From Peribacillus simplex (GTDB taxonomy: Bacteria; Bacillota; Bacilli; Bacillales; DSM-1321), in NCBI RefSeq assembly GCF_001578185.1, contig NZ_CP011008.1:4802001-4866000 (forward strand): 64,000 bases of DNA, in the 5' to 3' direction. This document shows, piece after piece, positions 7,146 to 22,840 of the stretch. Every line of letters starts with the position of its first letter. Position 1 is the stretch's first letter. A program made the translations under genes and the position numbers. The notes under the pieces were generated by a model. That model did no database searches. It was not told where the DNA came from and saw only the letters and a program-made list of their open reading frames with translations.

Positions 7146-7574
7146 TTAAAATGTACTATAAATATTTTCACATTCTGCACCTGTTGGTTCATAAAAGCAA
7201 TGAAGCTTGAAACGCCCAACGAGGGGCTGATTATACCAGGTTGCCGGACAATCTCCCTGTGGCCTGAAGTACCATAGGCTAAATTTCGAGGGCCATAGCC
7301 TTTCACCATTTATACTGCGACGCGCAAGCCTTATTTCTCTTTCCCTTGCTCGTTGATAAAAATACCCCTTCTGCACAGCTTCAAAGGCATGTTCCTGATA
7401 AATCATGTCTGGAATCGTCCTCAGCCCTTTGAAATCGGAACAATTAGACCTAATCCGATTGATCCCAACATTCCCGATCATCAACATGCCTTGATCACCT
7501 TCACCCTCGCCTTCAGCTCTAAGCAATCTTGCCAATAAGGCACGATCGGCAGCAGTGTTCTTTACAACAGCCAT
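7146..7574 (-). CDS. cwlJ: Cell wall hydrolase CwlJ (spore cortex-lytic)
   Basis: Hydrolase_2 (SleB/CwlJ) domain protein of 142 residues, the same length as B. subtilis CwlJ, with LLRAEGEGEG, GNVGINRIR, CSDFKGLRT, ARRSINGERLWP and SLWYFRPQGDCPATWYNQP all conserved. It degrades spore cortex peptidoglycan during germination, notably in response to Ca-dipicolinate. Like its orthologues it has no signal peptide or peptidoglycan-binding domain, fitting a coat-located enzyme. GGAGGTGATAGG precedes the ATG. In B. subtilis it is co-transcribed with gerQ; no gerQ is next to it here. Confidence 0.96.
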   Translation of the reverse strand: MAVVKNTAADRALLARLLRAEGEGEGDQGMLMIGNVGINRIRSNCSDFKGLRTIPDMIYQEHAFEAVQKGYFYQRAREREIRLARRSINGERLWPSKFSLWYFRPQGDCPATWYNQPLVGRFKLHCFYEPTGAECENIYSTF

Positions 7575-7697
7575 CCTATCACCTCCACTTTTTTTATCCT
7601 ATGCCCCATATATGGAAAAATACTCCGGTTTTTCACAAAACCTTCATATAAAGTACACGTCCCATCAATATTAAAACATTATACTTAAGTAAGGCTG

Positions 7698-7745
7698 GGT
7701 AGCACGCGTGGCTATCATGGTATTTGGCGAAGGCGGGGCCAATAC
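7698..7745 (+). ncRNA. Two-hairpin structured RNA element, copy 1 (unassigned family)
   Basis: Hairpin A: GGTAGC 7698-7703 pairs with GCTATC 7711-7716 around loop ACGCGTG. Hairpin B: GTATTTGGC 7720-7728 pairs with GCCAATAC 7738-7745, with one bulged base and loop GAAGGCGGG. The copy at 21073-21121 has the same two hairpins with pair-preserving changes. The G-U pair in hairpin A exists only if the plus strand is transcribed. A TATACT hexamer at 7680 could be a -10 box, but no good -35 is seen. The terminator at 7761-7790 could end the transcript. I cannot name a matching RNA family. Confidence 0.5.
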
Positions 7746-7760
7746 TTTCTTTCTACATAT

Positions 7761-7790
7761 AAAAAGGCGACACATATTGTGCCGCCTTTT
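7761..7790. terminator. Terminator between the RNA element and the DUF1292 gene
   Basis: AAAAGGCG(A)CAC and GTGCCGCCTTTT pair around ATATT. It has T-rich tails on both strands and can end the minus-strand DUF1292 transcript as well as a plus-strand RNA. Confidence 0.8.
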
Positions 7791-7802
7791 CCTCTTGTCC
7801 TA

Positions 7803-8072
7803 TCATTCTTTCTCTTTAAATGCCGCTTCAAACGCCAATGATACCTTTTCGAACTCTTCATCCGATTCGATATCGAGCAGCTCACCTTCGCCTTCGACCC
7901 TGAAAAAGAAAATATCGATATCTTCCTCTGTATCTTCTTCAATATCTTCAAGCAAACCTACTGCTACATATTCCGTTCCTTCTACATCCAATGATCCTAA
8001 AACCTCAACTTCATGGCCTTCATTATTGTCATCAGTAAGGGTGAAAACCTCACCTTCACGAATATTACCCAT
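7803..8072 (-). CDS. DUF1292 family acidic protein (YrzB-like)
   Basis: Small cytoplasmic protein of 89 residues, very acidic (runs such as EDIEEDTEEDID), with the DUF1292 pattern EGEVFTLTDDNNEGHEVEVL, YVAVGLL and IFFFRVEGEG. Function unknown. The frame runs back to 8117, but MGNIREGE at 8072 has GGGAGGAGAGG about 8 bases upstream and is the better start. Monocistronic with its own terminator. Not linked here to the yrrK-like genes that often neighbour this family. Confidence 0.82.
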   Translation of the reverse strand: MGNIREGEVFTLTDDNNEGHEVEVLGSLDVEGTEYVAVGLLEDIEEDTEEDIDIFFFRVEGEGELLDIESDEEFEKVSLAFEAAFKEKE

Positions 8073-8279
8073 ATTACCTCTCCTCCCATATCCATTAAAT
8101 AATGGAGTTGTTTCCATAGTATATCGACTATTCCATATAGAAACAAATTTTTGCCCTGAAAAAAATAAATTCTTTTCTTTTCAAGAAAAGAATCCATTAA
8201 AATGGGAAAATGACCCTAAAAAGCGAACGAAATATTAATACCTTACCAATATATAGTATAGACGGAAGGAGGTTATAGG

Positions 8280-8861
8280 ATGAGTGACCAAAATGATTTA
8301 ATTTCCAGCATCAAACTTTTCTTAAAGGGAGAGAAACAGGCATACGACGAGCTATATGAAAAAACTATTCAAAGTGTCTATAGAAACGTTCACTTTCTTA
8401 TAGACGAAAAAGCGGATATTGACGATGTGATTCAGGATATCTACATAGAGGTCTATAAGTCTCTTCGTAAATATGATTGCGAAAGACCTTTCAAACCATG
8501 GTTAATGGGGATTGTCATACGGCAGCTTCAAACCTATCGACGGAAAAGGTGGATGCGCCTAAGGATTTCTAAAAAGGCAGAAGCAGAAGTAGCAGTACAA
8601 ATCAATGTTCCAGATTTTTCTCATGACATTATTGATAAAATTTCTAATCAACAACTCGTAGATTTAGTAAACCAGTTACCTTACAAGCTAAAACAAGTCG
8701 TAATTCTTCGCTACTTAAATGATTATTCACAAGAAGAGGTAGCCAGAATTTTAGAAATCCCGATTGGAACCGTTAAATCCAGGATTCACGCTTCTTTAAG
8801 AAAGTTGAATGCGAAAGGAAAAGAAAGTCAATTATTTTTAGAGAAAGTGAGGAATGTATAA
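8280..8861 (+). CDS. ECF-type RNA polymerase sigma factor
   Basis: Sigma-70 family protein of 193 residues with only regions 2 and 4. Region 2 spans about 20-92 (AYDELYEKTIQSVYR, DIDDVIQDIYIEVYKSL for core binding, then a basic -10 reading segment). Region 4 spans about 125-176 (LPYKLKQVVILRYLNDYSQ, a helix-turn-helix ending TVKSRIHASLRKL). GGAAGGAGG precedes the ATG. Its stop overlaps the start of the next gene by one base (TAATG), typical of a sigma/anti-sigma pair. The stress it answers cannot be told. Confidence 0.9.
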   Translation: MSDQNDLISSIKLFLKGEKQAYDELYEKTIQSVYRNVHFLIDEKADIDDVIQDIYIEVYKSLRKYDCERPFKPWLMGIVIRQLQTYRRKRWMRLRISKKAEAEVAVQINVPDFSHDIIDKISNQQLVDLVNQLPYKLKQVVILRYLNDYSQEEVARILEIPIGTVKSRIHASLRKLNAKGKESQLFLEKVRNV

Positions 8862-9544
8862 TGAACAATCTTCATAATCAATTAAGGGAAGCATTATATG
8901 AAGAAAGTAAGAGCCTAAATCCTTCACCAGAACTAAAAGTAAAAGTAATGAGTACAATAACAACTAATCGAGGGAAAAGAAAAAAACATTTAATAACAAG
9001 CGTGCTAATTGCTTCACTGTTACTCCCAACCAGTGCTTTCGCCTATCAATCCTTCCTGGCTGATGATCTATACGGATCATTCGAGCAGGTAAAAAAGCAT
9101 TTGGCTAATGCTACCATGGAGGGATACCTCCTTTTCGATGCAAAACTGTCCCAAGCTAAAGGTGAATTGGGAAAAGAAGAGTATGCTGATTTCAAAGAAT
9201 TATTACATGTAGTAACTGAGTCTAAGCTAGACTATGGAGATGCAAACGGCAATATTGATTACGACCAACTTCCTTCAAGAAAAATCGCTGAATTAAAAAC
9301 AGCTTTTATGGAAATACAGCCATATTTCGATAAATTAAACGGACTAGTATCCAGTGAAGAGTTGTTAACGGCTGAGGAATACGAAACGTATATTGAGGCT
9401 CTTATGACATATGAAAAAATTGCCGTGCAAAGTGGGAGTGAAAACGGCTCAGTTAATGTCGATGACTTACCTGCTAATCTTCAAGCTGAATTTCAAGATG
9501 CAAGGGATTTCATGGATTATGTAAATGAGATGCAAATTCAATGA
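8861..9544 (+). CDS. DUF3600-type membrane protein, probable anti-sigma factor
   Basis: 227 residues: a charged cytoplasmic N-terminus (1-42), one membrane helix (about 43-61, LITSVLIASLLLPTSAFAYQ) and a large, helical, acidic extracellular domain. Sequence and position behind an ECF sigma gene resemble Bacillus DUF3600 proteins. By position and topology it should hold the sigma factor inactive at the membrane; no ZAS zinc motif (HxxxCxxC) is present, so the contact would differ from classical RsiW-like anti-sigmas. The start codon overlaps the sigma stop by one base. A terminator follows. Confidence 0.75.
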   Translation: MNNLHNQLREALYEESKSLNPSPELKVKVMSTITTNRGKRKKHLITSVLIASLLLPTSAFAYQSFLADDLYGSFEQVKKHLANATMEGYLLFDAKLSQAKGELGKEEYADFKELLHVVTESKLDYGDANGNIDYDQLPSRKIAELKTAFMEIQPYFDKLNGLVSSEELLTAEEYETYIEALMTYEKIAVQSGSENGSVNVDDLPANLQAEFQDARDFMDYVNEMQIQ

Positions 9545-9573
9545 AGTAGAAAGAGTTCTCCACTATACATGTA

Positions 9574-9614
9574 TAGACAATACTTTTCTTCATTAAGTAT
9601 TGTCTATTTCTTTA
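9574..9614 (+). terminator. Terminator of the ECF sigma operon
   Basis: Perfect 12-bp stem TAGACAATACTT/AAGTATTGTCTA with a 9-base loop, followed by TTTCTTT. Confidence 0.9.
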
Positions 9615-9770
9615 TCAATCATTTTCCACGATTCACCAGCCAATTCTTCCTTCATCCATAATTTTTTAATAATCAGAAAAACACTACCCCGAAATTGTAA
9701 TTTTATTACGAATAATGTTATATATACTAATACTTTCATATTGTACTAAACAAAATTAGGAGGAAGTTCC

Positions 9771-10157
9771 TTGGCTATAAAAAGAGTCGATCATATCGGA
9801 GTTGTTGTAAGAGATCTTGAAGAATCCATAACCTTTTATCAGGATGTATTAGATTTAAAAGTGAAATCGCGGGTGCTACATACTAATGGTGTAATCCAAC
9901 TAGCATTCCTTGGATACAATGATTCAGACGAAACAGAAATTGAATTAATTCAAGGTTATAGCGACACACTGCCATCCGAAGCAACGATCCACCATTTTGC
10001 AATTACTGTGGATGATATCGAAGAGGAATATGACCGGATTAAAAGTTTAGATAACATCGAGCTGATTGATGAAGAAATCGTCACCCTTCCAAATGGTTAT
10101 CGCTATTTCTATATATATGGACCAGAAAAAGAGTGGATTGAATTTTTCCAAAGGTAA
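9771..10157 (+). CDS. VOC (glyoxalase/bleomycin-resistance) family protein
   Basis: Single-chain vicinal-oxygen-chelate protein of 128 residues with two beta-alpha-beta-beta-beta modules. Likely metal ligands are His8 (DHIGVVV), Glu58 (IELIQ), His75 (HHFAITV) and Glu124 (EWIEFF), the pattern of lactoylglutathione lyase-like and methylmalonyl-CoA epimerase-like enzymes. The substrate is unknown. TTG start with AGGAGGAAG 6 bases upstream. Monocistronic, terminator downstream. Confidence 0.85.
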   Translation: MAIKRVDHIGVVVRDLEESITFYQDVLDLKVKSRVLHTNGVIQLAFLGYNDSDETEIELIQGYSDTLPSEATIHHFAITVDDIEEEYDRIKSLDNIELIDEEIVTLPNGYRYFYIYGPEKEWIEFFQR

Positions 10158-10170
10158 AAGTTAATTAATA

Positions 10171-10205
10171 AAAAAGCAGAGTTGATAAAACTTCTGCTTT
10201 CTTTA
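10171..10205 (+). terminator. Terminator of the VOC gene
   Basis: AAAGCAGA/TCTGCTTT stem followed by CTTTA. Confidence 0.75.
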
Positions 10206-10471
10206 CGTTATCTTACCTTACCTAAACCGAACTGGTTCTCTCTCCCCCCCTTTTCGAACAAGCATTAAAGTTAATAAAATAAGATTACGTCATACACTTC
10301 CTTTAAGCTAGGTTAGACATGAAGAGGCCCTTGGTTTATTAAGGGCTCTTATTCTCATGAACGATTCCTCTTTGTAACTAACAAAAAATCATACATCCTG
10401 CTTCTCAAATTGTCTTATTAACCGATTTAATATAATATGCTCTGACTGCTTAAAGCTTTCCTTTTCAAAAT
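10206..10471. other. Intergenic region with an orphan hairpin
   Basis: A second hairpin (AAGAG-CCCTT/AAGGG-CTCTT, about 10319-10351) lies away from any gene end. On the minus strand at about 10398-10480 a clean stretch reads FEKESFKQSEHIILNRLI and ends in QDV-stop without a start or ribosome site, perhaps a gene remnant. Nothing else recognised. Confidence 0.4.
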
Positions 10472-10508
10472 AAAAAGTTGATTCAAGGAACCTTCCCCCT
10501 GAATCAAC
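10472..10508 (-). terminator. rpsN terminator
   Basis: GTTGATTCA/TGAATCAAC stem followed on the minus strand by TTTTTATTTTG. Confidence 0.9.
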
Positions 10509-10526
10509 CTTGCTTTTCTCCCCGAT

Positions 10527-10796
10527 TCACCAGCTTGCCTTTTTGACACCTGGCAGTTGCCCTTTATGAGCAAGTTCCCTAAAAACGATTCGTGACATGT
10601 TGAATTTGCGCATATATCCACGGGGCCTTCCTGTTACTCCGCAACGATTGTGAACCCTTGTCGGCGAAGAATCACGCGGGAGTTTGGCCAATGCAGCATG
10701 ATCCCCCTTCTCCTTCAATTGCGTTCTAAGTTCTGCATACTTTTCGACCATTGCCAACTGTTTTTGTGCTTTTACCACCTTGGATTTTTTAGCCAT
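10527..10796 (-). CDS. rpsN: 30S ribosomal protein S14, zinc-independent paralogue
   Basis: 89 residues, longer than the 61-residue zinc-binding S14 of the main ribosomal operon. It has a single cysteine ([11 protein letters not shown]) and no CXXC pairs, so it does not bind zinc. Such C-minus S14 proteins (B. subtilis YhzA) replace the zinc form during zinc starvation, releasing zinc, and are repressed by Zur. Its place next to a zinc-free L33, a COG0523 GTPase and Zur operators fits exactly. AAAGGAGAG precedes the ATG. Confidence 0.95.
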
Positions 10797-10835
10797 TTTA
10801 ATCTCTCCTTTTTAAACATAATGATTGTATAAATT

Positions 10836-12005
10836 CTATAAACTGTTCACAATTCGTTCCGCTGCCTGTCTTGCTCCAGATATATTCCTGGATATCGGTC
10901 CCATTTCAAGTTCAGCCAATGCACCCGTGACATATAAACCAGGTCCCCACTGCAACGACTGCGATACAATCGGATAACCACATTCAGCAAGGCGTAAATC
11001 ATGCGACTGGATGACTGGCGTTAGCCAATCCTTCCCTGGCATTGAAGACTTAAAGCCGGTTGCTAAAAGGATCGTCCCTGTTTGTTGGATAACCTTTTCG
11101 TTTTTATCCCTGAGGCTAATATACCCGTCCCTCCACACAGCGCTTATCACTTCAACATCCATGACACGCAATAATACCTGTTTAACCTGATTCATCAGCA
11201 CTTTATGTAAGTCAGGTGGAATGGATCCCTTATAACGGGCATGGATAATGGCTTCGCGTCTTTTCTGATAGCTTGTTATAGCACGGAAAGGACGCTGTCT
11301 TTTCGGCCCCAACCAACCAGGATCACTGTCGAAATTATGAATTCTAAACGGATGCCGCTTTAGTACCGTTACTTCATTGGGATAGATCTTACTCAGCTTT
11401 AAAGCCAGATGGACAGAAGATATGCCTCCCCCAATGATCGTGATGGGTCCATGTAATTGTGTCAGCTCCGGAATATTTCCATCGAATATGTGAAAAATGA
11501 AGCCCTCATGCTCTTGTTTTAATTGCAGTGCCCAATCCGGCCAATAATGCTGTTCACCAATACCAATTGAAATCACGATTTTTTTCCCTGCAAGTCGTCG
11601 CTTGTTTTGCAATTGTACTTCCCAGCCCTGTCCCGTTTTACAGACAGACGTGACTTTCCCTTGCACCCATGCCTGCTTAATAGATAAATCATCTGTAACT
11701 TGAGCACAGTGTTCATTGAAGGATTGTAGGGATGGCCGCTTATATTGGCCATAAAAATTATTGTTCCAGTCTGCTTTTTCCACATATTTCTGCAGGCTGA
11801 ATGGATTCACATCCAGATGGTGTACGGATGGTGAACGTAAATATGGCATTGAAATCACTTCCGTACAATGCTTCCATCTCGCCAATGGTTCTCCATTTCT
11901 ATCTACAATCGCCAGCTGGTCCACTGTCGTTTTTCCTGACTTTAGTAAAAATGTGGCCATCGTCGTACCTTGAATGCCTCCGCCAATAATGATCCATTCC
12001 AACAT
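10836..12005 (-). CDS. FAD/NAD(P)-binding oxidoreductase in the zinc-starvation cluster
   Basis: 389-residue flavoprotein. IIIGGGIQG (about 5-13) binds FAD, IIGGGISSVHLALKL in the middle binds NAD(P)H, and LLATGFKSS is the typical C-terminal motif. The pattern resembles class B flavin monooxygenases and lysine/ornithine N-hydroxylase relatives (SidA/IucD/PvdA), but I cannot assign a substrate. The start at 12005 (MLEWIIIGG) has AAGGGGGG about 6 bases upstream; a longer frame to 12038 would crowd the operator. A Zur-like box lies 38 bases upstream and rpsN follows 40 bases downstream, so it is likely induced on zinc limitation. Confidence 0.75.
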   Translation of the reverse strand: MLEWIIIGGGIQGTTMATFLLKSGKTTVDQLAIVDRNGEPLARWKHCTEVISMPYLRSPSVHHLDVNPFSLQKYVEKADWNNNFYGQYKRPSLQSFNEHCAQVTDDLSIKQAWVQGKVTSVCKTGQGWEVQLQNKRRLAGKKIVISIGIGEQHYWPDWALQLKQEHEGFIFHIFDGNIPELTQLHGPITIIGGGISSVHLALKLSKIYPNEVTVLKRHPFRIHNFDSDPGWLGPKRQRPFRAITSYQKRREAIIHARYKGSIPPDLHKVLMNQVKQVLLRVMDVEVISAVWRDGYISLRDKNEKVIQQTGTILLATGFKSSMPGKDWLTPVIQSHDLRLAECGYPIVSQSLQWGPGLYVTGALAELEMGPISRNISGARQAAERIVNSL

Positions 12006-12042
12006 GAACTTCCCCCCTTTTACATCCATTCCCTTCAATAAA

Positions 12043-12057
12043 ACATAATCATTACGA
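12043..12057. promoter_or_regulatory. Zur operator upstream of the flavoprotein gene
   Basis: ACATAATCATTACGA matches the 7-1-7 Zur palindrome TCGTAATNATTACGA at 12 of 14 defined bases. It lies between rpmG and the flavoprotein start. Confidence 0.8.
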
Positions 12058-12071
12058 TTTAAACGACGGAA

Positions 12072-12221
12072 TTACTTCGTTTCTCGGTGAAGCGTGTGTT
12101 TCTTTAAACGCGGACAGTACTTTTTCAATTCGATTCGATCCGGGTTATTCCGCTTGTTTTTCGTTGAGATATAATTTCGGTCCCCTGATTCTGTGCATGC
12201 TAAAGTAATGTTTACTCTCAT
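12072..12221 (-). CDS. rpmG: 50S ribosomal protein L33, zinc-independent form
   Basis: 49-residue protein beginning [19 protein letters not shown] and ending [10 protein letters not shown]. It is unmistakably L33, but it has single cysteines where the zinc form has two CXXC pairs, so it is the zinc-free variant. AGGAGG lies 7 bases before the ATG. It follows the COG0523 GTPase gene by 20 bases and is probably co-transcribed with it from the Zur-controlled promoter. Replacing zinc-binding L33 and S14 saves zinc when Zur is derepressed. Confidence 0.95.
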
Positions 12222-12241
12222 GTTTGTTCCTCCTAAGTTTA

Positions 12242-13435
12242 TTAATGAACTATTTCCGTAAATGCAGGTAATGGATCTTCATACAGAGACCAATCATGCT
12301 GCAGCTCTATTTCCGTCAATAAGCATTGATCTAATTCATTTTCGATTTCCTGTTGATTCATTTGAATGCCAATCAGCACTAGTTCCGTCATCCGGTCTCC
12401 GTAAAGATCATCCCAGCGTTCCAATAATTCAGGTTCATCCTGCAGTATCTGCTGTTGTTCATCTTTAGGATAAGCAGCAATCCATTTACCTGCTCCCTCG
12501 ATCATTAATGACGGTCCAGCCTGTGATAGCAGGCCCGCTGTATCATTTCTTGATGCCAACCAAAGGAAGCCTTTTGCCCGCACAACTTCCACCGGCCAAC
12601 TTTCCAGCCACGTCATCAGCCGCGATGGATGAAATGGTTTTTTCCTTCTGTAAACGAAGGAGGCAATCCCATATTCTTCAGTTTCTGGAATATGCTCATC
12701 ATTTAATTCCTTTATCCAACCCGCCCCTTGGCTTGCCTTTTCATAATCAAACAGATGGGTGTTCATGACTTCTTTTAACGGCACCTGGGAATGATCCGTT
12801 TCTATAATCCGCGCATCCGGGTTTATTTTTTGAAGGACCCCATTTAACTCCCCTATATCTTCTGGCTTCATTAAATCCATTTTATTTAGAAGTATTACAT
12901 TGGCGAACTCAATTTGATCAATCAATAGATCAACCACTTCCCTCTGATCGGCCTCATCCTTTGCCTGCATTCGATCAATAAGAGTTTCCCCTGAAGCGTA
13001 ATCCTGCCAAAAGTTCTTCGCATCAACAACAGTGACCATCGTATCGAGCCGACAAAATTGTGATAAATCAATTCCCACGTTTTCATCAACATACGTGAAG
13101 GTTTGGGCGACCGGAACGGGCTCACTGATACCGGTCGATTCAATCACGATATAGTCGATATTACCTTGTGTGGACAGCTTTTCCACTTCAATCATTAAAT
13201 CCTCACGAAGCGTACAGCATATGCAACCGTTCTGCATTTCCACCAACTTTTCATCTGTCCGGGTAAACCCTCCCTGTTTGACAAGGGAAGCATCAATATT
13301 GACCTCACTCATATCATTGACGATGACGGCAACCTTCAGCTTCTCCCGATTTTCAAGGATATGATTCAGCAGTGTCGTTTTTCCCGCGCCAAGGTATCCA
13401 CTCAAAACTGTAACAGGGATTTTCTTATTTCTCAT
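12242..13435 (-). CDS. yciC: COG0523/CobW-family zinc-responsive GTPase (YciC/ZagA-like)
   Basis: 397-residue G3E-family GTPase. Walker [10 protein letters not shown] (13-21), the metal-binding CICC motif (71-74), the IESTGISEP switch, the NKMD guanine-specificity motif, and a C-terminal CobW_C domain. YciC (ZagA) is a Zur-regulated metallochaperone that keeps zinc-dependent FolE working under zinc limitation in B. subtilis. The start has AGGAG upstream. Two Zur-like operators lie 46-125 bases before it, and the L33 gene follows. Confidence 0.93.
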
Positions 13436-13480
13436 TCACAAACACTCCTTAAACATTTCTGCTTTTTACCCACCTACAAA

Positions 13481-13495
13481 TCAAAATCATTACGA
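13481..13495. promoter_or_regulatory. Zur operator, proximal to the GTPase gene
   Basis: TCAAAATCATTACGA (plus strand) matches TCGTAATNATTACGA with two mismatches in the left half; the right half is perfect. Confidence 0.82.
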
Positions 13496-13545
13496 TTTAT
13501 TCGATAGAATTATTTTTTCGTTTAGTACTACCCCTTTATAATAAA

Positions 13546-13560
13546 ACGTAATCATTACTA
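13546..13560. promoter_or_regulatory. Zur operator, distal to the GTPase gene
   Basis: ACGTAATCATTACTA matches the Zur palindrome except at the first base and the last-but-one base, giving a second site upstream of the cluster. Confidence 0.78.
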
Positions 13561-13932
13561 TTTGCAAGTTTTTTTCAAAATTACCTCTCGAATATTTCCT
13601 GAACGAGTTTATCGCCATTGCTCCAAATACAGCAGCATGGGCACTCACGTAAAAAATTCATCTGTGCAGAAATTCCAAAAATACGCTCCATCGTTTTCGC
13701 CGGCCTTGACTGTATAAGTTATTATTATTAACGAATTGAATTAAAGTAAGTTTATAAAAATAAATAGAAGCCCAATCACACCTAACAACATGTGTAATGA
13801 ACCTCCAGTGCGGCTTTATAATTTATTGTACTTCCATATAACAGCTGATCATCAGCAACGTTTCATTATCCAATTCATTTTTCCTTTTTTAAGAAGAACC
13901 TTTAACGTATTACTTTGTTGCAAATCATATGC
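13561..13932. other. Intergenic region, no recognised gene
   Basis: AT-rich sequence between the Zur operators and the end of the secreted-peptide gene. The long plus-strand frame beginning at 13790 is antisense to that gene and has no ribosome site. No repeats or RNA structure recognised. Confidence 0.5.
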
Positions 13933-14103
13933 TTATTCCGCCATTTTCCACTCTGAAGATTTTACTGTCTCTTGTTCAAAAGTTTCAATCTCTCTCTGTT
14001 TAGCCAGTTTAGAAGCTTGTGACACGGACCATGTTAAATTCCCAAAGGCAATCACTGTCCCGATCGAGATAACTAACACCTTTTTACAAAGTATTTTCTT
14101 CAA
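13933..14103 (-). CDS. Small secreted peptide with phosphatase-like signal sequence
   Basis: 56 residues from a TTG start with AGGAGG 6 bases upstream. The signal peptide aligns without gaps to that of the alkaline phosphatase at 17156: KKVL (7-10), Ile12, AFG (19-21), Leu23 and WS (25-26) are identical, with several conservative matches. The mature part (about 27 residues, SKLAKQREIETFEQETVK then SSEWKMAE) is charged, helical-looking and unlike phosphatase. The promoter has the same spaced repeats and -10 position as the phosphatase promoter. Function unknown; it could be a signalling or periplasmic helper peptide, or a phosphatase gene remnant that kept its promoter and signal. Confidence 0.65.
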   Translation of the reverse strand: MKKILCKKVLVISIGTVIAFGNLTWSVSQASKLAKQREIETFEQETVKSSEWKMAE

Positions 14104-14137
14104 TAGCAACCTCCTGAAAATGTATTGGATTACTTTA

Positions 14138-14180
14138 AATATAAACCAACACTGTTAACCTAACATTAAGCGACTGTAAA
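14138..14180 (-). promoter_or_regulatory. PhoP-box-like promoter of the secreted peptide
   Basis: On the minus strand: TTTACA (14175-14180), TTAATG and TTAACA (14153-14158) with 5-base gaps, then 9 bases, then -10 TATATT (14138-14143). The 11-base period and TTHAYA-like repeats match PhoP boxes, and the spacing to the -10 equals that at 17191-17233. Confidence 0.65.
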
Positions 14181-14228
14181 TGTACGGAACTTATATTTGT
14201 ACATTAGTTGTAAACTTTGTTTGCCAAC

Positions 14229-14265
14229 AAAAAAAAGCTGATTGCATCCGCAGCCAGCTTTTTTT
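14229..14265 (-). terminator. Terminator of the GIY-YIG gene
   Basis: AAAAAAGCTG/CAGCTTTTTT stem with a 14-base loop and homopolymer tails on both strands. Confidence 0.85.
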
Positions 14266-14267
14266 CC

Positions 14268-14642
14268 TTATTTATAGAACACTTTGTCGACGTTGTATTT
14301 AGCATGAAGTTTATTGATCATGTACGTTTCATAGATATCACGTTCCATAGCGTCTTCGACTATAAGAATGTCAATTTTCTTGACTTCATTACGATGCTCT
14401 TTAATCGGAGAAACATTATCCTCGAAATGCTTCTTGACCCTTTGTCTTAATTTACGAGCTTTTCCGACAAAAATCAGCTCATCATTTTCATTGTAAAACA
14501 AGATGATGCCGCCTTTATCACGGGGAATCAAATGAAAATCGATAAACCCGTAAATTTCAGGAATGACAGCTTCGTCTCCTTCTATAACTTGTTTTCTTTG
14601 TTTGATGCTTATATCCGCTGCAGGGATTTCAATTTTTATCAT
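14268..14642 (-). CDS. GIY-YIG nuclease-superfamily protein
   Basis: 124 residues with a divergent GIY-YIG fold at about 43-115: GIILFYN replaces GIY, IFVGKARKLRQRVKKHF supplies the VG and catalytic Arg region, and YETYMINKLHAKYN supplies the conserved Glu. An additional N-terminal strand region (1-42) precedes it. It resembles the stand-alone Bacillus GIY-YIG proteins of unknown role rather than UvrC. The tyrosines of the motif are altered (IIL and FVG), so catalysis is uncertain. Monocistronic. Confidence 0.75.
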   Translation of the reverse strand: MIKIEIPAADISIKQRKQVIEGDEAVIPEIYGFIDFHLIPRDKGGIILFYNENDELIFVGKARKLRQRVKKHFEDNVSPIKEHRNEVKKIDILIVEDAMERDIYETYMINKLHAKYNVDKVFYK

Positions 14643-14817
14643 TACAATTCACGTCCTCTATTTGTATAAGGTGAAACTTTCAATCGGAATCAAAACTCCG
14701 GTAATGGATAAATTTCACGCCAGGCACACTTAAAGGTAAATGGTATCATAATTATGAATGAAAAGCCATGTATCCCTTTAATGGTTTAGATTCGATGTCG
14801 ATTCAGCATTAAATATA

Positions 14818-14851
14818 AAGAAGAAGACTCGCTGAGAGCCTCCTTCTTTGT
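14818..14851 (-). terminator. Probable ypzG terminator
   Basis: Imperfect AAGAAGGAGGCTC/GAGTCTTCTTC stem with a T-rich tail on the minus strand. Confidence 0.55.
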
Positions 14852-14862
14852 CGGAAATATCC

Positions 14863-15015
14863 TTACCACCTGTGAGCCTTTGCATTGCTTCTTAGTATAA
14901 TGTTTGTTTGCGATTCTTGCGTATGGCCATTAACTTGAGATTTTGAACGCTTAGGTCTTGTCCAATTATGGTGAAACTTTTGAGAATGTGGATCTAATTG
15001 ATCTTTATAGCTCAT
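14863..15015 (-). CDS. ypzG: YpzG family small protein
   Basis: 50-residue basic protein with the YpzG-type ending QVNGHTQESQTNIILRSNAK and the beginning MSYKDQLDPHSQKF. Function unknown; the family is confined to Bacillus relatives. The start has GAGGTGA about 8 bases upstream. Monocistronic. It is too short for routine ORF cut-offs, but the motif and ribosome site support it. Confidence 0.75.
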   Translation of the reverse strand: MSYKDQLDPHSQKFHHNWTRPKRSKSQVNGHTQESQTNIILRSNAKAHRW

Positions 15016-15118
15016 TCTGTGTCACCTCATCATTAGGATTTGGATATTCCGTTCAGTGATAGTAATCGCCATCACTTGTTCTAGTATTTTATTTTTCCAA
15101 GGCATTTATACATATTCT

Positions 15119-15766
15119 TTAAAAAGTGAATTCAGCTGACTTGCCTTTTGCAAGGACTTCCCCTTCTTCATCTACCGCATCACTTGTCATGAAGGATATG
15201 CCTTCTATGTTTCCATCCCTTAGAATGAAACCAATGTTTCCATTTTTCGAACCATTTCCTTCTATTTCACCAGTAAGTTCTTCTAAGTAGATGTCATCTT
15301 CCCACGTCAGATGTTCCCCGCTGTCCGTTTCAAGAAATGCGACTGGGGAAAACTTGATTTTTTTATCCGAATGGTTTTTGATTTCCACGTTTACTTTTAC
15401 GATATCGAAATCTTCATCATGAGTATAGCCATGAAAGAAATCAATCATGCTGTAATCCGGAGTGGCATGCATCACTTTCATGTCTTTGACTTCAACCTCA
15501 ATCGGACCAACATTCAACGCTTCATTCACTTTTTTATAGGCTTTCAAAGTTAAGTCGCCCTTAGCATCGGAAACGTTTTGGCCGATTTGGTTCAATTTTA
15601 AATCATCAGGAAGCTGTGGATTCGGAACATAGACATCCTTTTTCACCAGTGGCCGTGCAACTTCCTCTGTTTTTTCTTTAGCTGTCGTTTCTTCTTTGTA
15701 AGCTGGTTGTGTATTAAGAGCACCAAATGTCGTTAATATCAGGGCACCAATCATCAGTCTGTTCAT
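15119..15766 (-). CDS. Secreted DUF4352-like protein, partner of alkaline phosphatase
   Basis: 215 residues with an N-terminal signal (about 1-22, MNRLMIGALILTTFGALNTQ) and no lipobox cysteine. The C-terminal half (about 90-215) is beta-rich, with VKVNVEIKNHSDKKIKFSP, typical of DUF4352/immunoglobulin-like domains. It lies 22 bases behind the alkaline phosphatase stop with no terminator between, so both are likely made from the Pho-type promoter. Role unknown; a cell-surface partner or chaperone of the phosphatase is an inference. Confidence 0.7.
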   Translation of the reverse strand: MNRLMIGALILTTFGALNTQPAYKEETTAKEKTEEVARPLVKKDVYVPNPQLPDDLKLNQIGQNVSDAKGDLTLKAYKKVNEALNVGPIEVEVKDMKVMHATPDYSMIDFFHGYTHDEDFDIVKVNVEIKNHSDKKIKFSPVAFLETDSGEHLTWEDDIYLEELTGEIEGNGSKNGNIGFILRDGNIEGISFMTSDAVDEEGEVLAKGKSAEFTF

Positions 15767-15788
15767 TGAATCCCTCCCTGAAGTATTT

Positions 15789-17156
15789 TTACTTCTTTAA
15801 TAGATCAAAGATGATTTTGGCTTGATCCGTGTTATCGACCTGGCCTGCAAAACGTTCTTTATATGGTCCATATGCGTAGACCGGAACATCTTCACCTGTA
15901 TGTCCCCCTGTAGTCCATGCAGTGTTGGTCCGATTGTCGAATATGGCTTCGATGGCATTATCGACGTTCGTCACATTTTTTGATTTGGCGGCTTCTGTTA
16001 CCGTTTTGATTTCATCGTTAGTTAGTTTCAGTTCATTTTGATTAATATATTGCTTTAAAGTCTTTTCAACATCGGCCCCTTTGACGATGGCATCCGCCAT
16101 GAAGTCAGGGGTGCGTTTGGCTGCCTTGATCGGTTCACCATACCAATTATATATTCCTTTAGCCCCGATCGAGAATCCTCCTGTAGAGTGATCGGCAGTG
16201 GCCACCACTAATGTATGTTTGTCTTTCTTCGCAAATTCGATGGCCGCTTTGTATGCTTTTTCAAAGTCTTCCATTTCACTCATTGCACCTACGATATCAT
16301 TATCATGTCCCGCCCAATCGACCTGGCTTCCCTCGACCATAAGGAAGAATCCATCTTTGTCTTTATTCAAGCGCTGGATTGCCGAACTTGTCATGTCTGA
16401 CAAAGAAGGCGTTTCACTTGGGCGGTCAATCATTTTCGGGAGTCCTTCAGAAGCGAATAAACCAAGGACCTGTTCATTTTTGTCCTTAAGCATTTGATTT
16501 TTATCAGTCACATAACTGTACCCGTCTTTTTCGAAGGCTTTCGCCAAATTGACATCAGGCCGGACAAAATTGGACTTCCCACCGCCCAATAGGACGTCAA
16601 TTTTATGTTTGCCCTTGATTAAGTCATTATAATAATCGTCTGCGATTGAATTCATGTTTTTCCGATTTTCATCATGGGCTCCAAAAGATGCTGGTGTAGC
16701 ATGAGTGATTTCAGAAGTGGCAACCAATCCCGTCGCTTTTCCTTTTTCCTTTGCTGCTTCCAATACGGTTTTGACTTCAGATTTATCATTATCCACTGCA
16801 ATTGCTGCGTTATAGGTCTTCACTCCGGAAGACATTGCCGTTGCTGCTGAGGCTGAATCCGTTATATTTTGTGCAGCGTCTTCAGGGTAGGTCATCTGCT
16901 GGCCAACCAAGTATTTATCAAACTCTGTCTTTTCTGCCACCTTCGTACCAGGATTATCTTTTAAATACCGGTATGCGGAAGTATAGGAAACACCCATGCC
17001 GTCACCGATAAGGAAAATCACGTTCTTGATCTCCGGTTCTTTTTTTTGCTTATCCTTTGCCGAAACACGATCCGCTGCGGACCATGATAAACTTCCAAAT
17101 GCTAATGCAGAAGCGAGTGTGATGGGCAAAACCTTTTTACTCCAATTATGAATCAA
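15789..17156 (-). CDS. Alkaline phosphatase, secreted
   Basis: 455-residue phosphomonoesterase. Signal peptide 1-33 ending near VSA-KDK; metal site IFLIGDGMG (48-55); the nucleophile motif NITDSASAATAM with Ser101; VATADHSTGG and TTGGHTGEDVPVYAYGP for the other zinc/magnesium ligands. It releases phosphate from organic esters outside the cell, comparable to B. subtilis PhoA/PhoB. TTG start with GGGAGG 8 bases upstream. The promoter has PhoP-like repeats. A DUF4352-like gene follows in the operon. Confidence 0.93.
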   Translation of the reverse strand: MIHNWSKKVLPITLASALAFGSLSWSAADRVSAKDKQKKEPEIKNVIFLIGDGMGVSYTSAYRYLKDNPGTKVAEKTEFDKYLVGQQMTYPEDAAQNITDSASAATAMSSGVKTYNAAIAVDNDKSEVKTVLEAAKEKGKATGLVATSEITHATPASFGAHDENRKNMNSIADDYYNDLIKGKHKIDVLLGGGKSNFVRPDVNLAKAFEKDGYSYVTDKNQMLKDKNEQVLGLFASEGLPKMIDRPSETPSLSDMTSSAIQRLNKDKDGFFLMVEGSQVDWAGHDNDIVGAMSEMEDFEKAYKAAIEFAKKDKHTLVVATADHSTGGFSIGAKGIYNWYGEPIKAAKRTPDFMADAIVKGADVEKTLKQYINQNELKLTNDEIKTVTEAAKSKNVTNVDNAIEAIFDNRTNTAWTTGGHTGEDVPVYAYGPYKERFAGQVDNTDQAKIIFDLLKK

Positions 17157-17190
17157 ATGAATGACCTCCCTATAATTAATATCTAATTAA

Positions 17191-17233
17191 ACTATAGGTG
17201 AAGAAGATGAATACAATGTCAAGGCTATGTAAA
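17191..17233 (-). promoter_or_regulatory. PhoP-box-like promoter of the alkaline phosphatase operon
   Basis: Minus strand: TTTACA (17228-17233), TTGACA, TTCATC (17206-17211) at 11-base intervals, then 9 bases, then -10 TATAGT (17191-17196). The layout fits B. subtilis PhoP-dependent promoters, which lack a proper -35. Confidence 0.72.
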
Positions 17234-17481
17234 AATGCAGTAGGATTATTATTAAGACAAGGTAAAGGCAGACATGTCAGGGGATTGTATGCACTTTATG
17301 AGGTTGTTGGTTATTCAGGAAAATCGGGACCATTTTATATGGTTTTGAGGAGTGAAAAAAAATTGGTTAACACCAACGTGGTTAAGTGATCTTGAACAAA
17401 GTTCTTTTCATTCAACTTCTTCAATTCGGGGTGATTTGTTAGGGATTTGAAAGTGCTAAAAAAATTAATGGAGAAAAAAGA
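17234..17481. other. Intergenic region before the second intron
   Basis: With the promoter above, about 325 bases without a gene. A 63-codon plus-strand frame from 17198 runs through the phosphatase promoter without a ribosome site and is not credible. Otherwise nothing recognised. Confidence 0.5.
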
Positions 17482-19369
17482 ATCGAGTAGGAGGAGGCGC
17501 CTAGCCTCCGACCTCTCACACCACCGTACGTACCGTTCGGTATACGGCGGTTCAGTTTAAGTCTGACGTAGTTTTGTATATCGTTCATATAGATTTACTA
17601 ACCCATGATGGAGCCAATAAACATTATTAAGGGTTTTGTCTAGAATAGGACTATGCGCTATGCGCCAATAACCCTTTCTGCTATTTCCCCATTCATATGC
17701 TTTTCCAAATGGGACGCCTAATCCTTTGAGTTTCCTCACCCTCGTTCTTGGTAATTTCCATTGCTTCCATAGGCACATTCTGAGTCTTCTTCGAATCCAT
17801 GAATCTAAATTCTTCAATACGTTCGGAGTATCAATGAGGGCGAAATACCCCATCCAACCTCTAAGGTATTGCTTTAACTTATTTATTCGGAGTTCCATGG
17901 GTATCGGTAATTTTCTCGAGGTCATTTCCCTGATTCGTTTCTTTACCCTCTTCACCGTTTGTTTAGCCAGTAGAACCTTCGGGTTCTTCTTTGACTTCGT
18001 GAAACTAAAACCGAGAAACGTTCTGTTCCAAGGGCGATCATACTTCGACTTCTCGTAGTTGACCTTTAGCTTCAGTTTATTTTCAATGAAGCTTGAGATA
18101 TTTCCCATTGCACGTTTGGCGGCTTTTCGTGTCTTCACAAAGATAGTACTGTCATCCGCATACCTTACGAATCGAAGATTGCGTTTCTCTAGTTCTTTAT
18201 CTAAATCGTCTAACATGATATTAGATAATAAAGGACTTAACGGACCTCCTTGCGGAGTTCCCTCCTCACTTTTATGAAAAAGTCCGCCTATCATAATGCC
18301 TGCTTGAAGGAATTTACGAATCAGTTTAAGAACTCGTTTATCTTCAATTTTCCGCTCTAACATTCCCATGAGCTTGTCATGATTCACTTTATCGAAGAAC
18401 TTCTCCAAATCCATATCCACTACCCATGTATAACCTTCGGTTATATAGGACTTTGCCTTTCGAACCGCCTGGTGCCCTTGTTTGTTAGGGCGAAATCCAT
18501 AGCTATTCTCCGAAAAGGTTGAGTCATATATCTTGGTCAATATTTGGGCAATGGCTTGTTGAATGAAACGGTCTAGAACGGTTGGAATACCCAAAAGCCG
18601 AACTCCGCCGTTTGGTTTCGGGATTTCGATACGACGGACGGGCTTCGGTTGATAGGTACCCTGTAAAAGGGCAGTTTTCATGTTGTACCATTCGGTTACG
18701 AGGTGCGGTCTCAGGTTTTGGACCCGCATTCCATCTACACCATGGCTTCCCTTATTTCTTTCTACACGCTTCAATGCCTGTATTAAGTTTTCCCTCTCTA
18801 GTATCTGTTCCATTAACATCGTTGATATCCTTTCTACGTGGATAAATGGTCTATTTGTGCCTTTATCTGCTCCACCCTTTTGAAGTTCCCCGTGTATTCA
18901 CCACTTCTTCCTTCAAATAAGTTCCGTTAGGAATTGTTTGCTTCTTCACAGATAACGAACGCCTAGTATTCATCCTTCTTAATCTGTTCGGTCCTTCCTT
19001 GTCTTCTCGAGTAGACAAGTACTATGACCTCTGCTGACTTCTGATGATTCAGCTGTCCATCACTGGAAAGGTTACCAAGTGTACTTGGCTGTCATCAGAC
19101 CTCCCCGGGTAAGAGTGCAATCTTTCCCTCCATCTATCTGCTTCATTTACTCTGTACCACCTTCGGCAGTAAGGACTTTGTTTTGTTTCGCAAACTCATC
19201 CAATGATACCTAGCCTTATATGAAGTTCGTGTTCCTCAGACCGGAGGTTTGCCGCTTGCTTCCTTCAGATTCCACGTCACCGTGGACACCCTTGCATTAA
19301 GCTAACCACTACTACTGCCTTCATGATTCGGGACTTCCACCCTATAGATTGCACCCATGCCGGGCGCAC
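17482..19369 (-). mobile_element. Group II intron, class C-like, copy 2 (1,888 bp)
   Basis: Same length, ends and orientation as copy 1: GTGCGCCC at 19369 and CGAT at 17482. Flanks differ immediately outside these ends, which fixes the boundaries. On the minus strand the insertion point is 5 nt (TATTT) after an AAGCATCC/GGATGCTT stem, again behind a terminator-like hairpin. Near-identity implies recent movement or gene conversion. Confidence 0.93.
17557..18819 (-). CDS. ltrA: Group II intron reverse transcriptase/maturase (copy 2)
   Basis: 420 residues, identical in sequence to the protein of copy 1: YADD at 220-223, GTPQGGPLSP at 187-196, a maturase domain and no HNH endonuclease. The frame is intact, with the same ATG and upstream AAAGGAT, so both copies could supply maturase in trans to each other. 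Confidence 0.95.
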   Translation of the reverse strand: MLMEQILERENLIQALKRVERNKGSHGVDGMRVQNLRPHLVTEWYNMKTALLQGTYQPKPVRRIEIPKPNGGVRLLGIPTVLDRFIQQAIAQILTKIYDSTFSENSYGFRPNKQGHQAVRKAKSYITEGYTWVVDMDLEKFFDKVNHDKLMGMLERKIEDKRVLKLIRKFLQAGIMIGGLFHKSEEGTPQGGPLSPLLSNIMLDDLDKELEKRNLRFVRYADDSTIFVKTRKAAKRAMGNISSFIENKLKLKVNYEKSKYDRPWNRTFLGFSFTKSKKNPKVLLAKQTVKRVKKRIREMTSRKLPIPMELRINKLKQYLRGWMGYFALIDTPNVLKNLDSWIRRRLRMCLWKQWKLPRTRVRKLKGLGVPFGKAYEWGNSRKGYWRIAHSPILDKTLNNVYWLHHGLVNLYERYTKLRQT

Positions 19370-19374
19370 AAATA

Positions 19375-19395
19375 AAGCATCCATTCAGGATGCTT
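19375..19395 (-). terminator. Terminator-like hairpin at intron copy 2 (probable purT terminator)
   Basis: Minus strand AAGCATCC-TGAAT-GGATGCTT followed by TATTT and the intron. It is the first minus-strand hairpin with a U-rich tail after purT. Confidence 0.7.
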
Positions 19396-19398
19396 CAG

Positions 19399-19443
19399 AC
19401 TGTAGACAAACTCGCAGAAAGCGAGTTTGCCTTCAGTTTTTTT
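19399..19443 (+). terminator. Orphan plus-strand terminator
   Basis: CAAACTCGC/GCGAGTTTG stem flanked by ACTG/CAGT and followed by seven Ts on the plus strand. No plus-strand gene precedes it, so it may protect purT from antisense reading or be a repeat element. Confidence 0.6.
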
Positions 19444-19498
19444 CTTTGAAATGTTCCAGTCATTTTCAGAAAACCGCTCCCTTACCGCCGACTGACTG

Positions 19499-19526
19499 AA
19501 GCGCTCCATTCAAAGAGCGCTTTTTT
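19499..19526 (+). terminator. Second plus-strand terminator hairpin
   Basis: Perfect AAGCGCTC/GAGCGCTT stem, 8-base loop, then TTTT on the plus strand just before the purT stop. Confidence 0.65.
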
Positions 19527-19531
19527 CACTA

Positions 19532-20689
19532 TTATTTTTCTACAACTAAACATTCCAAAGCACGGGCCGCATTTACTCTCGCTACCTCGATTGAATCGGC
19601 AGATGACAGGGCTACAGCGACCCTTCTCCCGGCCTTTGTAACCGGTTTTCCGAAAAGACGGACTTGTGTATTTGGTATAGCCAAGGCTTGTTCAACACCG
19701 ACTATAGAATATTCCGATAACTCATCTTGCGCTTTTAATGGGCGGCTGGCACCTGGGTTGACCAGCGTGATTTCCGGGATGGGAAATCCTAGGATCGCTC
19801 GAACATGCAGGGCAAACTCCGACAAATTCTGAGTCACTAGTGTCACTAGCCCCGTATCATGCGGACGTGGGGAAACTTCACTGAAATAGACTTTATCCCC
19901 AGAGAGGAAAAGCTCAACACCGAATAATCCGTACCCTCCAAGTTCATCTGTAATGGCATGGGCAATTCTTTTCGCTTCCACTATTTGCGCTTCTGTCATA
20001 TTATGCGGCTGCCAGGATTCAATATAATCCCCGCCCTGCTGAATGTGGCCGATGGGAGCACAAAACATGGTACCGTTTACTGCCCGGACAGTAAGCAGCG
20101 TGATTTCCGAATCAAAACGGATAAATTCTTCAACGATCACCCGTCCATTTTGAACCCGGCCGCCTTCCATCGCGATTTTCCAGCACTCTTCCATGTCACC
20201 TTCCGTTCGGCACACGCTTTGACCTTTCCCTGAAGAACTCATCAGCGGTTTTACGACATTCGGAAATCCAACTTCTTTGGCAGCTTGGGCAAATTCTTCA
20301 TAAGTATCAGCGAATTTGTAGGCTGCCGTCGGAATCTCCAGGGTTTCAGAAGCCAACCTCCTGATTCCTTCACGATCCATAGTCAATTTAGCTGCTCTTG
20401 CCGTCGGAATGACATGAAAGCCTTCCTCTTCCAATTTGACTAATTCAGATGTAGCAATGGCTTCGATTTCCGGTACAATCAAATCGGGTTGTTCTTTTTC
20501 TACAATTCCCCTTAGTTGTTCCGCGTCAAGCATATCGATCACATAACTGCGATGGGCGACTTGCATGGCAGGGGCTAGTTCATAGCGGTCTACAGCAACG
20601 GTCTCCACACCAAGGCGCTGTGCTTCAAGTATGACTTCTTTCCCCAATTCACCGGAGCCCAATAATAAAATCTTTTTGGATTTATACAT
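19532..20689 (-). CDS. purT: Formate-dependent phosphoribosylglycinamide formyltransferase
   Basis: 385-residue ATP-grasp enzyme that makes formyl-GAR from GAR, formate and ATP in purine synthesis, the folate-independent alternative to PurN. N-terminal [14 protein letters not shown], then PEIEAIAT, the ATP-grasp core with [13 protein letters not shown] and [17 protein letters not shown], and the [14 protein letters not shown] metal/ATP site. Length matches B. subtilis PurT. GGAGGAGAG precedes the ATG. PurR-type boxes lie upstream. Confidence 0.96.
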
Positions 20690-20719
20690 TCAGTCTCTCC
20701 TCCTCAATACCTTAAAATT

Positions 20720-20762
20720 ATTATATACGAACTATAAACGAATAAAAATAAATATTTATTCG
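20720..20762 (-). promoter_or_regulatory. purT promoter with PurR boxes
   Basis: Two oppositely oriented CGAA cores (20739-20742 and 20759-20762) are separated by 16 bases, the spacing of PurR PurBox pairs, within A/T-rich flanks. A -10 TATAAT lies at 20720-20725 on the minus strand, so bound PurR would cover the promoter. Confidence 0.65.
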
Positions 20763-21031
20763 TATTTTCATTAAAAATCACACAAAAAACATGAAATGAC
20801 TACAGTTCATTTAAGTTTTTAAAAAATAACTTGAAAGCTAGGAATAATAAGTTTTATGTAGTTTTCCGGAAAGGTATATACGGAGTCTCCCTATTCAACA
20901 TGAATAGATGGTCTTTTCATGTTTATCAATGAGGGAGGAAATACCCTATGCAAAAGGATTCGATAAGGCCCTTTCCCCTCTGTTGATTGGGGACACAGAT
21001 GCACATGTCGAAATTTGCACTACGATTCATT
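20763..21031. other. Intergenic region with mini-ORF
   Basis: On the plus strand GGGAGGAAATACCCT precedes an ATG (20948) that opens only 12 codons (MQKDSIRPFPLC-stop). A CTATTCA/TGAATAG hairpin lies at about 20891-20907, upstream of it. It could be a leader peptide or a gene remnant. No further gene recognised. Confidence 0.35.
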
Positions 21032-21060
21032 TTGAAAATGTAAGCGCTTTCTATTATAAT
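21032..21060 (+). promoter_or_regulatory. Sigma-A promoter with embedded CcpA (cre) site for a small RNA
   Basis: TTGAAA (21032-21037), a 17-base spacer and TATAAT (21055-21060) make a near-consensus promoter. The spacer holds TGTAAGCGCTTTCT (21039-21052), one base from the cre consensus TGWAANCGNTNWCA, so CcpA binding would block the polymerase. Confidence 0.75.
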
Positions 21061-21066
21061 GGAATT

Positions 21067-21287
21067 AGGTTGGATGGCATGCGTGGCCGTCAAAGTATAT
21101 GGCGTAGGTGGGGCCAATACTAGCGCTAAGGAAGTCAAACTTCTTTACCGTAAAACTATCAGGATTCTTTTTGGTAGGGCTGCAATATTACTCGGACGAG
21201 TACTGGAGAACGTCCGTTACTTTTTAGGCTAAAAAGCGAGTTAATCATGCAATCGATAAGTAAAGCATAACTTTACTTATTTTTTGC
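21067..21287 (+). ncRNA. Candidate CcpA-controlled small RNA carrying the two-hairpin element, copy 2
   Basis: About 220 nt between a good sigma-A promoter and an intrinsic terminator (perfect 10-bp ATAAGTAAAG/CTTTACTTAT stem at 21256-21280, then Ts). The element is at its 5' end. Hairpin A is GATGGC/GCCGTC (21073-21078, 21086-21091, loop ATGCGTG); hairpin B is AGTATATGGC/GCCAATACT (21094-21103, 21113-21121). No ribosome site is seen; an open frame from 21059 begins inside the -10 box and cannot be read from this promoter. It is not 6S, SRP, tmRNA or RNase P RNA as far as I can see. Confidence 0.6.
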
Positions 21288-21327
21288 AGCAGCCCTCATC
21301 GTCTCAAGTCTAATAGTTTATAAGACT

Positions 21328-22573: not shown

Positions 22574-22840
22574 ACAGCACCTCCTCTTAACCAAATGTAT
22601 GCTGATTCGGTTTAATTATTGCCAAAGCACCCGGACCTTTCTTCATTTATTATCGGGACTACAAGATTGTTGTAGATCACTCCTCAAAATGGCATCATCC
22701 AGAATTCGCTGATATATGAACTCCAACGATGCCTTTTGATTATTTACTTCAGGCATTCGCCAAGCTTTCAAAAAGCTTACTATTTAAAATGGGCCATAAC
22801 ATTCACCTTCTTGATAAACAGGACATCCCGGAATAAAACA
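22574..22840. other. Intergenic region, nothing recognised
   Basis: Between two minus-strand genes. No credible gene, repeat or RNA structure was found apart from the katA terminator that follows. Confidence 0.5.

Follow-up and report, generated by a model that had tools for sequence, protein, structure and literature searches.

A conserved two-hairpin RNA element of bacilli, apparently undescribed, occurs twice in a region of Peribacillus simplex

The loci and the element

The stretch of Peribacillus simplex DNA analyzed here (64,000 bases of contig NZ_CP011008.1, hereafter the window) carries two copies of an element made of two consecutive hairpins, A and B, at 7698-7745 and 21073-21121, each within a 58-base core as delimited by our covariance model, R1 (Table 1). 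The original prediction had placed both copies at these positions and taken them for a candidate family of structured RNA. A degenerate pattern derived from both finds exactly these two matches in the window, and none in 100 shuffles, when up to three mismatches are allowed. Comparative sequence analysis, described below, confirms that the two copies belong to a real structured RNA family. The genes that flank them all lie on the minus strand, opposite to the element.

Table 1. Features at the two copies of the element, in window coordinates
Feature	Positions	Strand	Basis
Copy 1, core, R1 positions 1-58	7690-7747	+	cmsearch 76.8 bits, genome E 2.8e-17
Copy 1, hairpin A, stem GGTAGC/GCTATC, loop ACGCGTG	7698-7716	+	sequence, family covariation
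Copy 1, hairpin B, loop GAAGGCGGG at 7729-7737, bulge 7724	7720-7745	+	sequence, family covariation
Copy 1, T-rich tract abutting hairpin B, TTTCTTTCT	7746-7754	+	among the 22 of 140 copies with at least 6 T in 7
Copy 1, putative -10 box TATACT	7680-7685	+	sequence
Copy 1, downstream intrinsic terminator (predicted)	7761-7791	+	hairpin -12.8 kcal/mol, fold
Copy 1, neighbor, cell wall hydrolase gene	7146-7574	-	
Copy 1, neighbor, DUF1292 protein gene	7803-8117	-	
Copy 2, core, R1 positions 1-58	21065-21122	+	cmsearch 83.4 bits, genome E 4.4e-19
Copy 2, hairpin A, stem GATGGC/GCCGTC, loop ATGCGTG	21073-21091	+	sequence, family covariation
Copy 2, hairpin B, loop GTAGGTGGG at 21104-21112	21095-21120	+	sequence, family covariation
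Copy 2, sigma-A-like promoter (predicted), TTGAAA 21032-21037, 17-base spacer, TATAAT 21055-21060	21032-21060	+	sequence, family -10 statistics
Copy 2, putative catabolite-responsive element (cre, CcpA site) ATGTAAGCGCTTTCT within the promoter spacer	21038-21052	+	0 mismatches to cre consensus
Copy 2, putative Spo0A box TGTCGAA	21006-21012	+	family enrichment of the word
Copy 2, distal terminator (predicted), AAGTAAAG/CTTTACTT + T6	21258-21285	+	sequence, fold
Copy 2, neighbor, PurT-like ATP-grasp enzyme gene	19532-20689	-	
Copy 2, neighbor, LysM/M14 peptidase gene	21380-22594	-	

Structure and conserved letters

The pair-preserving differences between the two copies are as the original prediction had described them. 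The stem of hairpin A differs by one A-U to G-C double change and by two single changes that pass through G-U; the loops of hairpin A and of hairpin B (GAAGGCGGG and GTAGGTGGG) read as it gave them, and stem B holds a bulge that is T in one copy and A in the other. Such substitutions recur as strong covariation in distant copies. In alignment A6, comprising 102 distinct copies, 98.4% of the pair cells are paired and 12 of the 14 pairs show double compensatory changes, with 278 double-change cells against 57 after shuffling; this alignment, like A3 and A4, was fitted to the structure of the model, which favors structure, but the contrast with slid controls, in which only 23-58% of the cells are paired, is very large. 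Double changes are likewise found in 12 of the 14 pairs in A3 (76 distinct copies) and in A4 (41 distinct copies).

Since the stem A cells of 140 copies contain 67 G-U combinations and just 4 A-C combinations, the plus-strand RNA is the conserved molecule, which is the strand that had been proposed. Many of the least variable letters lie in unpaired parts, namely the tail GGNNGG, loop A, mostly ANNNGTG, and loop B, GNAGGNGGR. Within loop B, the first and second N (N1 and N2) vary, and N2 is never G among the 137 copies matched.

Distribution

The genome from which the window comes has a third close copy on its second contig (C2:80055) and a decayed fourth (C1:301549, 36.4 bits). Scanning a genome collection with an exact pattern gave 39 loci, one of which, acidobacterial, was discarded as chance; the others belong to Peribacillus, Neobacillus, Metabacillus, Domibacillus, Gottfriedia, Cytobacillus, Mesobacillus and Bacillus. 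The R1 model was built from 31 distinct sequences (alignment A1), and its matches were counted at E ≤ 0.01 with the window's own genome included. It found plentiful homologues in the family (33 of 43 genomes), the order (77 of 397 genomes, in 27 of 135 genera) and the class (27 of 398 genomes, in 17 of 146 genera), with up to eight copies per genome in the family and order searches. In the most numerous distant family, two of the contigs are plasmids deposited under the name Alicyclobacillus. In 44 genomes from the genus of B. subtilis, R1 had no match at this threshold, the best E being 0.03. When 348 sampled genomes of the phylum were searched with a broader model, R2, nothing convincing turned up outside the class: besides the window's own genome there were two weak matches, of 30.9 and 25.6 bits. 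The 30.9-bit one, rich in GC, lacks the promoter pattern, and judging by the sequence of this one we take both to be chance.

The element is also found on 57 plasmid records, 49 of them from Priestia, seven from Peribacillus and one recorded as Arthrobacter citreus; in the 40 plasmid matches listed, no gene is annotated over it, the gene table being incomplete. The Arthrobacter record, CP053689.1, is a plasmid of 250,451 bases that bears the element. Its deposit is probably misnamed, because it is equal in size to G746:C2, a contig from a genome of the window's order. A 61-base element query had no match in phage records.

Predicted promoters and terminators

Several features that go beyond the original prediction concern the ends of the putative transcript: the core sits at a predicted transcript start, often with CcpA-like and sometimes with Spo0A-like sites before it, and hairpin B can itself be the predicted terminator hairpin. 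Counts were made over 140 non-redundant copies, with cre sites scored against the cre consensus. Allowing one mismatch, a sigma-A-like -10 box stands 4-12 bases before the core in 80 copies, where 12.5 were expected; allowing two, a cre-like site was found in 64 (5.5 expected). Of the latter, 59 are placed 26-28 bases before model position 1, between the -35 and -10 boxes. The Spo0A-box word TGTCGAA occurs in 20 copies (0.8 expected), 20 of its 21 occurrences being 58-60 bases before model position 1; its reverse complement is present in four of the upstream regions (raw count). Copy 2 carries the full predicted set, from the Spo0A word through -35, cre, -10 and core to a distal terminator. 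In copy 1, the best cre alignment has four mismatches and no clear -35 box is seen. The promoter region of copy 1, at 7640-7690 (GTACAcGTCC...TATACTTAAG), seems to be conserved in the Peribacillus copies of its type, which have neither a cre nor a recognizable -35.

A U-tract (at least six T in seven) directly follows hairpin B in 22 of the 140 copies, compared with 4.7 expected. Among the 137 copies with enough sequence, these 22 are joined by 59 in which a separate terminator comes first, so that in 81 a U-tract or a terminator is found within 200 nucleotides before any open reading frame (ORF) with a ribosome site, a situation seen in nine of 137 in one round of shuffling. An ORF with a ribosome site on the same strand comes first in 12 copies, and 44 have neither; the same classes in the shuffled round numbered three with a U-tract, six with a terminator, two with an ORF and 126 with neither. 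Since a terminator comes first in 81 copies and an ORF in only 12, most copies look like stand-alone RNAs, as far as such predictions go.

For copy 2, the predicted RNA is about 220 nucleotides and would end at the distal terminator, which is retained in four of the five copy-2-type Peribacillus rows of alignment A5. The fold of 21066-21300, spanning this predicted transcript, is far better than that of shuffles (z -4.33). Its part from 21123 to 21285 (+) contains a long GGGCTGCAA/TTGCAGCAGCCC pairing, retained in four of five copy-2-type Peribacillus rows. The putative terminator of copy 1 begins 16 bases past the end of hairpin B and is symmetric, hence usable from both strands.

Comparison with known RNAs

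The original prediction knew of no RNA family that fits, and Rfam 15 bears this out. At gathering thresholds, the window gives six matches, all of them to pieces of group II introns elsewhere and none over the elements. The introns themselves are present as two copies, at 1970-3774 and 17482-19286 on the minus strand, with identical Rfam scores and 15,512 bases apart. Twenty distant member loci give no match over the element and ten away from it, to SAM, tRNA and fluoride families. At E ≤ 5, the copy 1 region shows six weak, irrelevant matches below the family cut-offs, several of them on the minus strand of the terminator, and the copy 2 region shows none. In the literature searched on RosA, RsaI, CcpA and sponge RNAs, and the small and structured RNAs of bacilli, nothing fits the element; this is an absence from those texts, not proof of unpublished status. 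Thus, the family is claimed by nothing in Rfam and is apparently undescribed, with a wiring similar to those of RosA and RsaI.

RosA (S345) of B. subtilis, a sponge of RoxS and FsrA, is a stand-alone small RNA with a sigma-A promoter, as is predicted for the element, and like the element it has G-rich unpaired segments; its length of about 225 nucleotides is close to the 220 or so predicted for copy 2. RosA is repressed by CcpA, and the cre-like sites of the element, strongly enriched at a fixed place, may reflect control of the same kind. RosA has no recognizable likeness to the element in sequence or structure, and the 44 genomes of its genus gave no match at E ≤ 0.01. We located RosA in B. 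subtilis 168 through its 15-base complement to RoxS, on a contig that we take to be the chromosome of that strain. Membership of RosA in the family was rejected, R1 reaching at best 2.5 bits, with filters off, in the 1301 bases around it. Promoter, cre and terminator taken together had pointed to no convincing RosA candidate in 0.4 Mb of B. subtilis sequence. No Rfam match lies over the element, and this covers RsaOG, which is itself in Rfam. PMC8216469 places the cre of RosA at -1 to +12, over the transcription start, in contrast to the element's cre-like sites, which are mostly in the spacer between -35 and -10. The same paper describes RsaI/RsaOG of Staphylococcus aureus as a CcpA-regulated small RNA whose G-rich regions bind C-rich small RNAs, and reports it as conserved in Staphylococcus and not in bacilli.

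It is tempting to propose that the element is a functional analogue of RosA and RsaI, a sponge that base-pairs with C-rich small RNAs such as RoxS/RsaE and FsrA; on the evidence that follows we consider this unlikely. The G-rich unpaired loops and the CcpA-like control do resemble RosA as described in PMC8216469, and the window's own genome has two tandem RNAs of the RsaE family with C-rich stretches. When its three close copies of the element were paired with these two RoxS RNAs, two of the six comparisons reached 12 bases including G-U, lengths equalled by 6% and 10% of shuffles. In the other four, however, the longest pairing was 8-10 bases, a length that 43-98% of shuffles equalled, and none of the duplex energies is remarkable, whereas RosA pairs with B. 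subtilis RoxS over 15 bases. Sponging of RoxS by base pairing, not clearly above shuffles, was therefore rejected. The variable letters N1 and N2 of loop B also speak against it. RsaE and the element do not co-occur, RsaE (E ≤ 0.01) being found in 7 of 27 genomes with the element and in 111 of 371 others, although Rfam may miss diverged RsaE. The tandem RsaE/RoxS RNAs lie at G000:C1:1281096-1281613 (L106), and one of them scores below the Rfam cut-off.

Downstream genes

The element could instead be a cis-acting 5′ leader that controls small genes just downstream, a reading to which we give somewhat little credence. It is favored by the 12 copies in which an ORF comes first, which include members of a 45-amino-acid family and of families of 62-63 amino acids, and by the small genes that follow the element on plasmids. 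The small ORFs, however, form three separate families (the 45-amino-acid one and those of 62-63 amino acids), a terminator comes first in most copies, and the genes after both window copies are on the opposite strand. No constant downstream gene or function, as would be expected of a leader or riboswitch, was found: no flanking protein family recurs in more than five of the non-redundant loci. Four of the small downstream proteins, two of them from the 45-amino-acid family, had no match at the Pfam or NCBIfam cut-offs. The family of about 45 amino acids, with a motif like DFIxEDRFELNSYLTYLF, stands behind the element in seven loci (L007, L008, L009, L071, L142, L144 and L308).

The sole clear leader of a larger gene is found in eleven Peribacillus genomes (L311-L319, L322 and L324), where an orthologous copy, itself bearing a cre-like site, now makes up the leader of a gene for a transporter of the POT family, as assigned by Pfam on the transporter protein of the window's own genome. 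In these eleven copies, the fold is decayed (23.8-42.2 bits), which argues against a leader role and hints that the fold is maintained for a free RNA.

Ribosome mimicry and a peptide

Loop B contains AGG-N-GG and might mimic a Shine-Dalgarno sequence, directing the RNA to the 3′ end of 16S rRNA. The AGGTGG of copies 2 and 3 does pair over six bases with the anti-Shine-Dalgarno region, but copy 1 pairs over five bases only, and the C that 33 of 90 equal-length copies have at N2 breaks both registers; thus, we regard this as very unlikely.

A short peptide encoded as GTG GCY RTC ... GGC GNA GGN GGR GCY is more improbable still. The claim that the substitutions show no third-codon bias calls for caution. 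Third positions are in fact somewhat more variable in the frame from the nearly fixed GTG (mean entropy 0.73 versus 0.40 and 0.62 in the 90 equal-length copies), and 121 of 136 copies share one frame, while 65 of all 136 run without a stop for 30 codons. The rejection of a protein stands, because 15 of the 136 copies are out of frame and none of the 22 whose hairpin B runs into a U-tract has an in-frame stop before the tract ends; in addition, compensatory pairs account for the pattern, and N1 is a second codon position.

Proposed role

Comparison thus establishes a conserved RNA with fixed purine-rich loops, located mostly at predicted transcript starts and mostly with a predicted end of its own. 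To account for it, we propose a stand-alone, trans-acting small RNA of which the element is the 5′ part, or the whole in some lineages, controlled by CcpA and titrating a conserved partner; we would put the chance that this is right at about even. CcpA would repress the cre-bearing copies while preferred sugars are present, and the RNA would accumulate when carbon runs out or sporulation begins. It would act in trans, with several copies adding up, and would present its fixed G-rich loops to one conserved partner, which it would titrate as a sponge or decoy. Either a protein that binds RNA or an RNA rich in C may fill this place. We lean toward a protein, as a judgement rather than a result, since the variable letters of loop B would interrupt continuous pairing.

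Non-coding RNAs of the CsrB and 6S type are known to titrate a partner through repeated loop motifs, and the likeness lies in this idea of titration. The recognition core of CsrA is GGA, which loop B lacks in most copies, and the element has only two conserved hairpins per RNA.

A number of observations weigh against the proposal of a trans-acting RNA. At the mismatch limits given above, 60 of the 140 copies have no -10 box and 76 have no cre, and copy 1 has neither a cre nor the Spo0A word. The promoters, terminators and regulator sites are predictions, the transcript is likewise a predicted one and the partner a putative one. The 12 copies with an ORF before any terminator and the 44 with neither do not conform to it. 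Of six plasmid records inspected, five have a small same-strand gene as the next annotation, with its start 107-231 bases past the match, so a leader role for some copies is conceivable. The transporter-leader copies have no clear -10 box beside the element and may therefore be plain pseudo-copies. Finally, in alignment A1, made without structure, 99.3% of the pair cells are paired and there are 15 double-change cells versus 3.9 in shuffles, but variation is nearly all in stem A, double changes are seen in only three of 14 pairs, which 50 of 500 shuffles equal, and the number of pair types is not above that of shuffles (389 of 500). This weak covariation arises because the A1 seeds were selected by a fixed hairpin B.

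A bolder form of the proposal is tentative, and we doubt it more than we believe it. Here, the element would be a decoy RNA, present across the class and in multiple copies, that connects catabolite repression by CcpA and entry into sporulation through Spo0A to a global RNA-binding partner new to bacilli. The partner would read it through two invariant purine-rich loops, the terminator hairpin would double as a binding loop in some lineages and plasmids would carry extra doses; the RNA would have been overlooked because the B. subtilis group lacks it.

In any case, a widespread RNA with near-invariant loops is missing from Rfam 15, and the model organism B. subtilis cannot reveal it, since the 44 genomes of its genus have no match at E ≤ 0.01. 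Naming the partner of this RNA could bring to light a layer of post-transcriptional control that connects carbon status with sporulation in bacilli used by industry.

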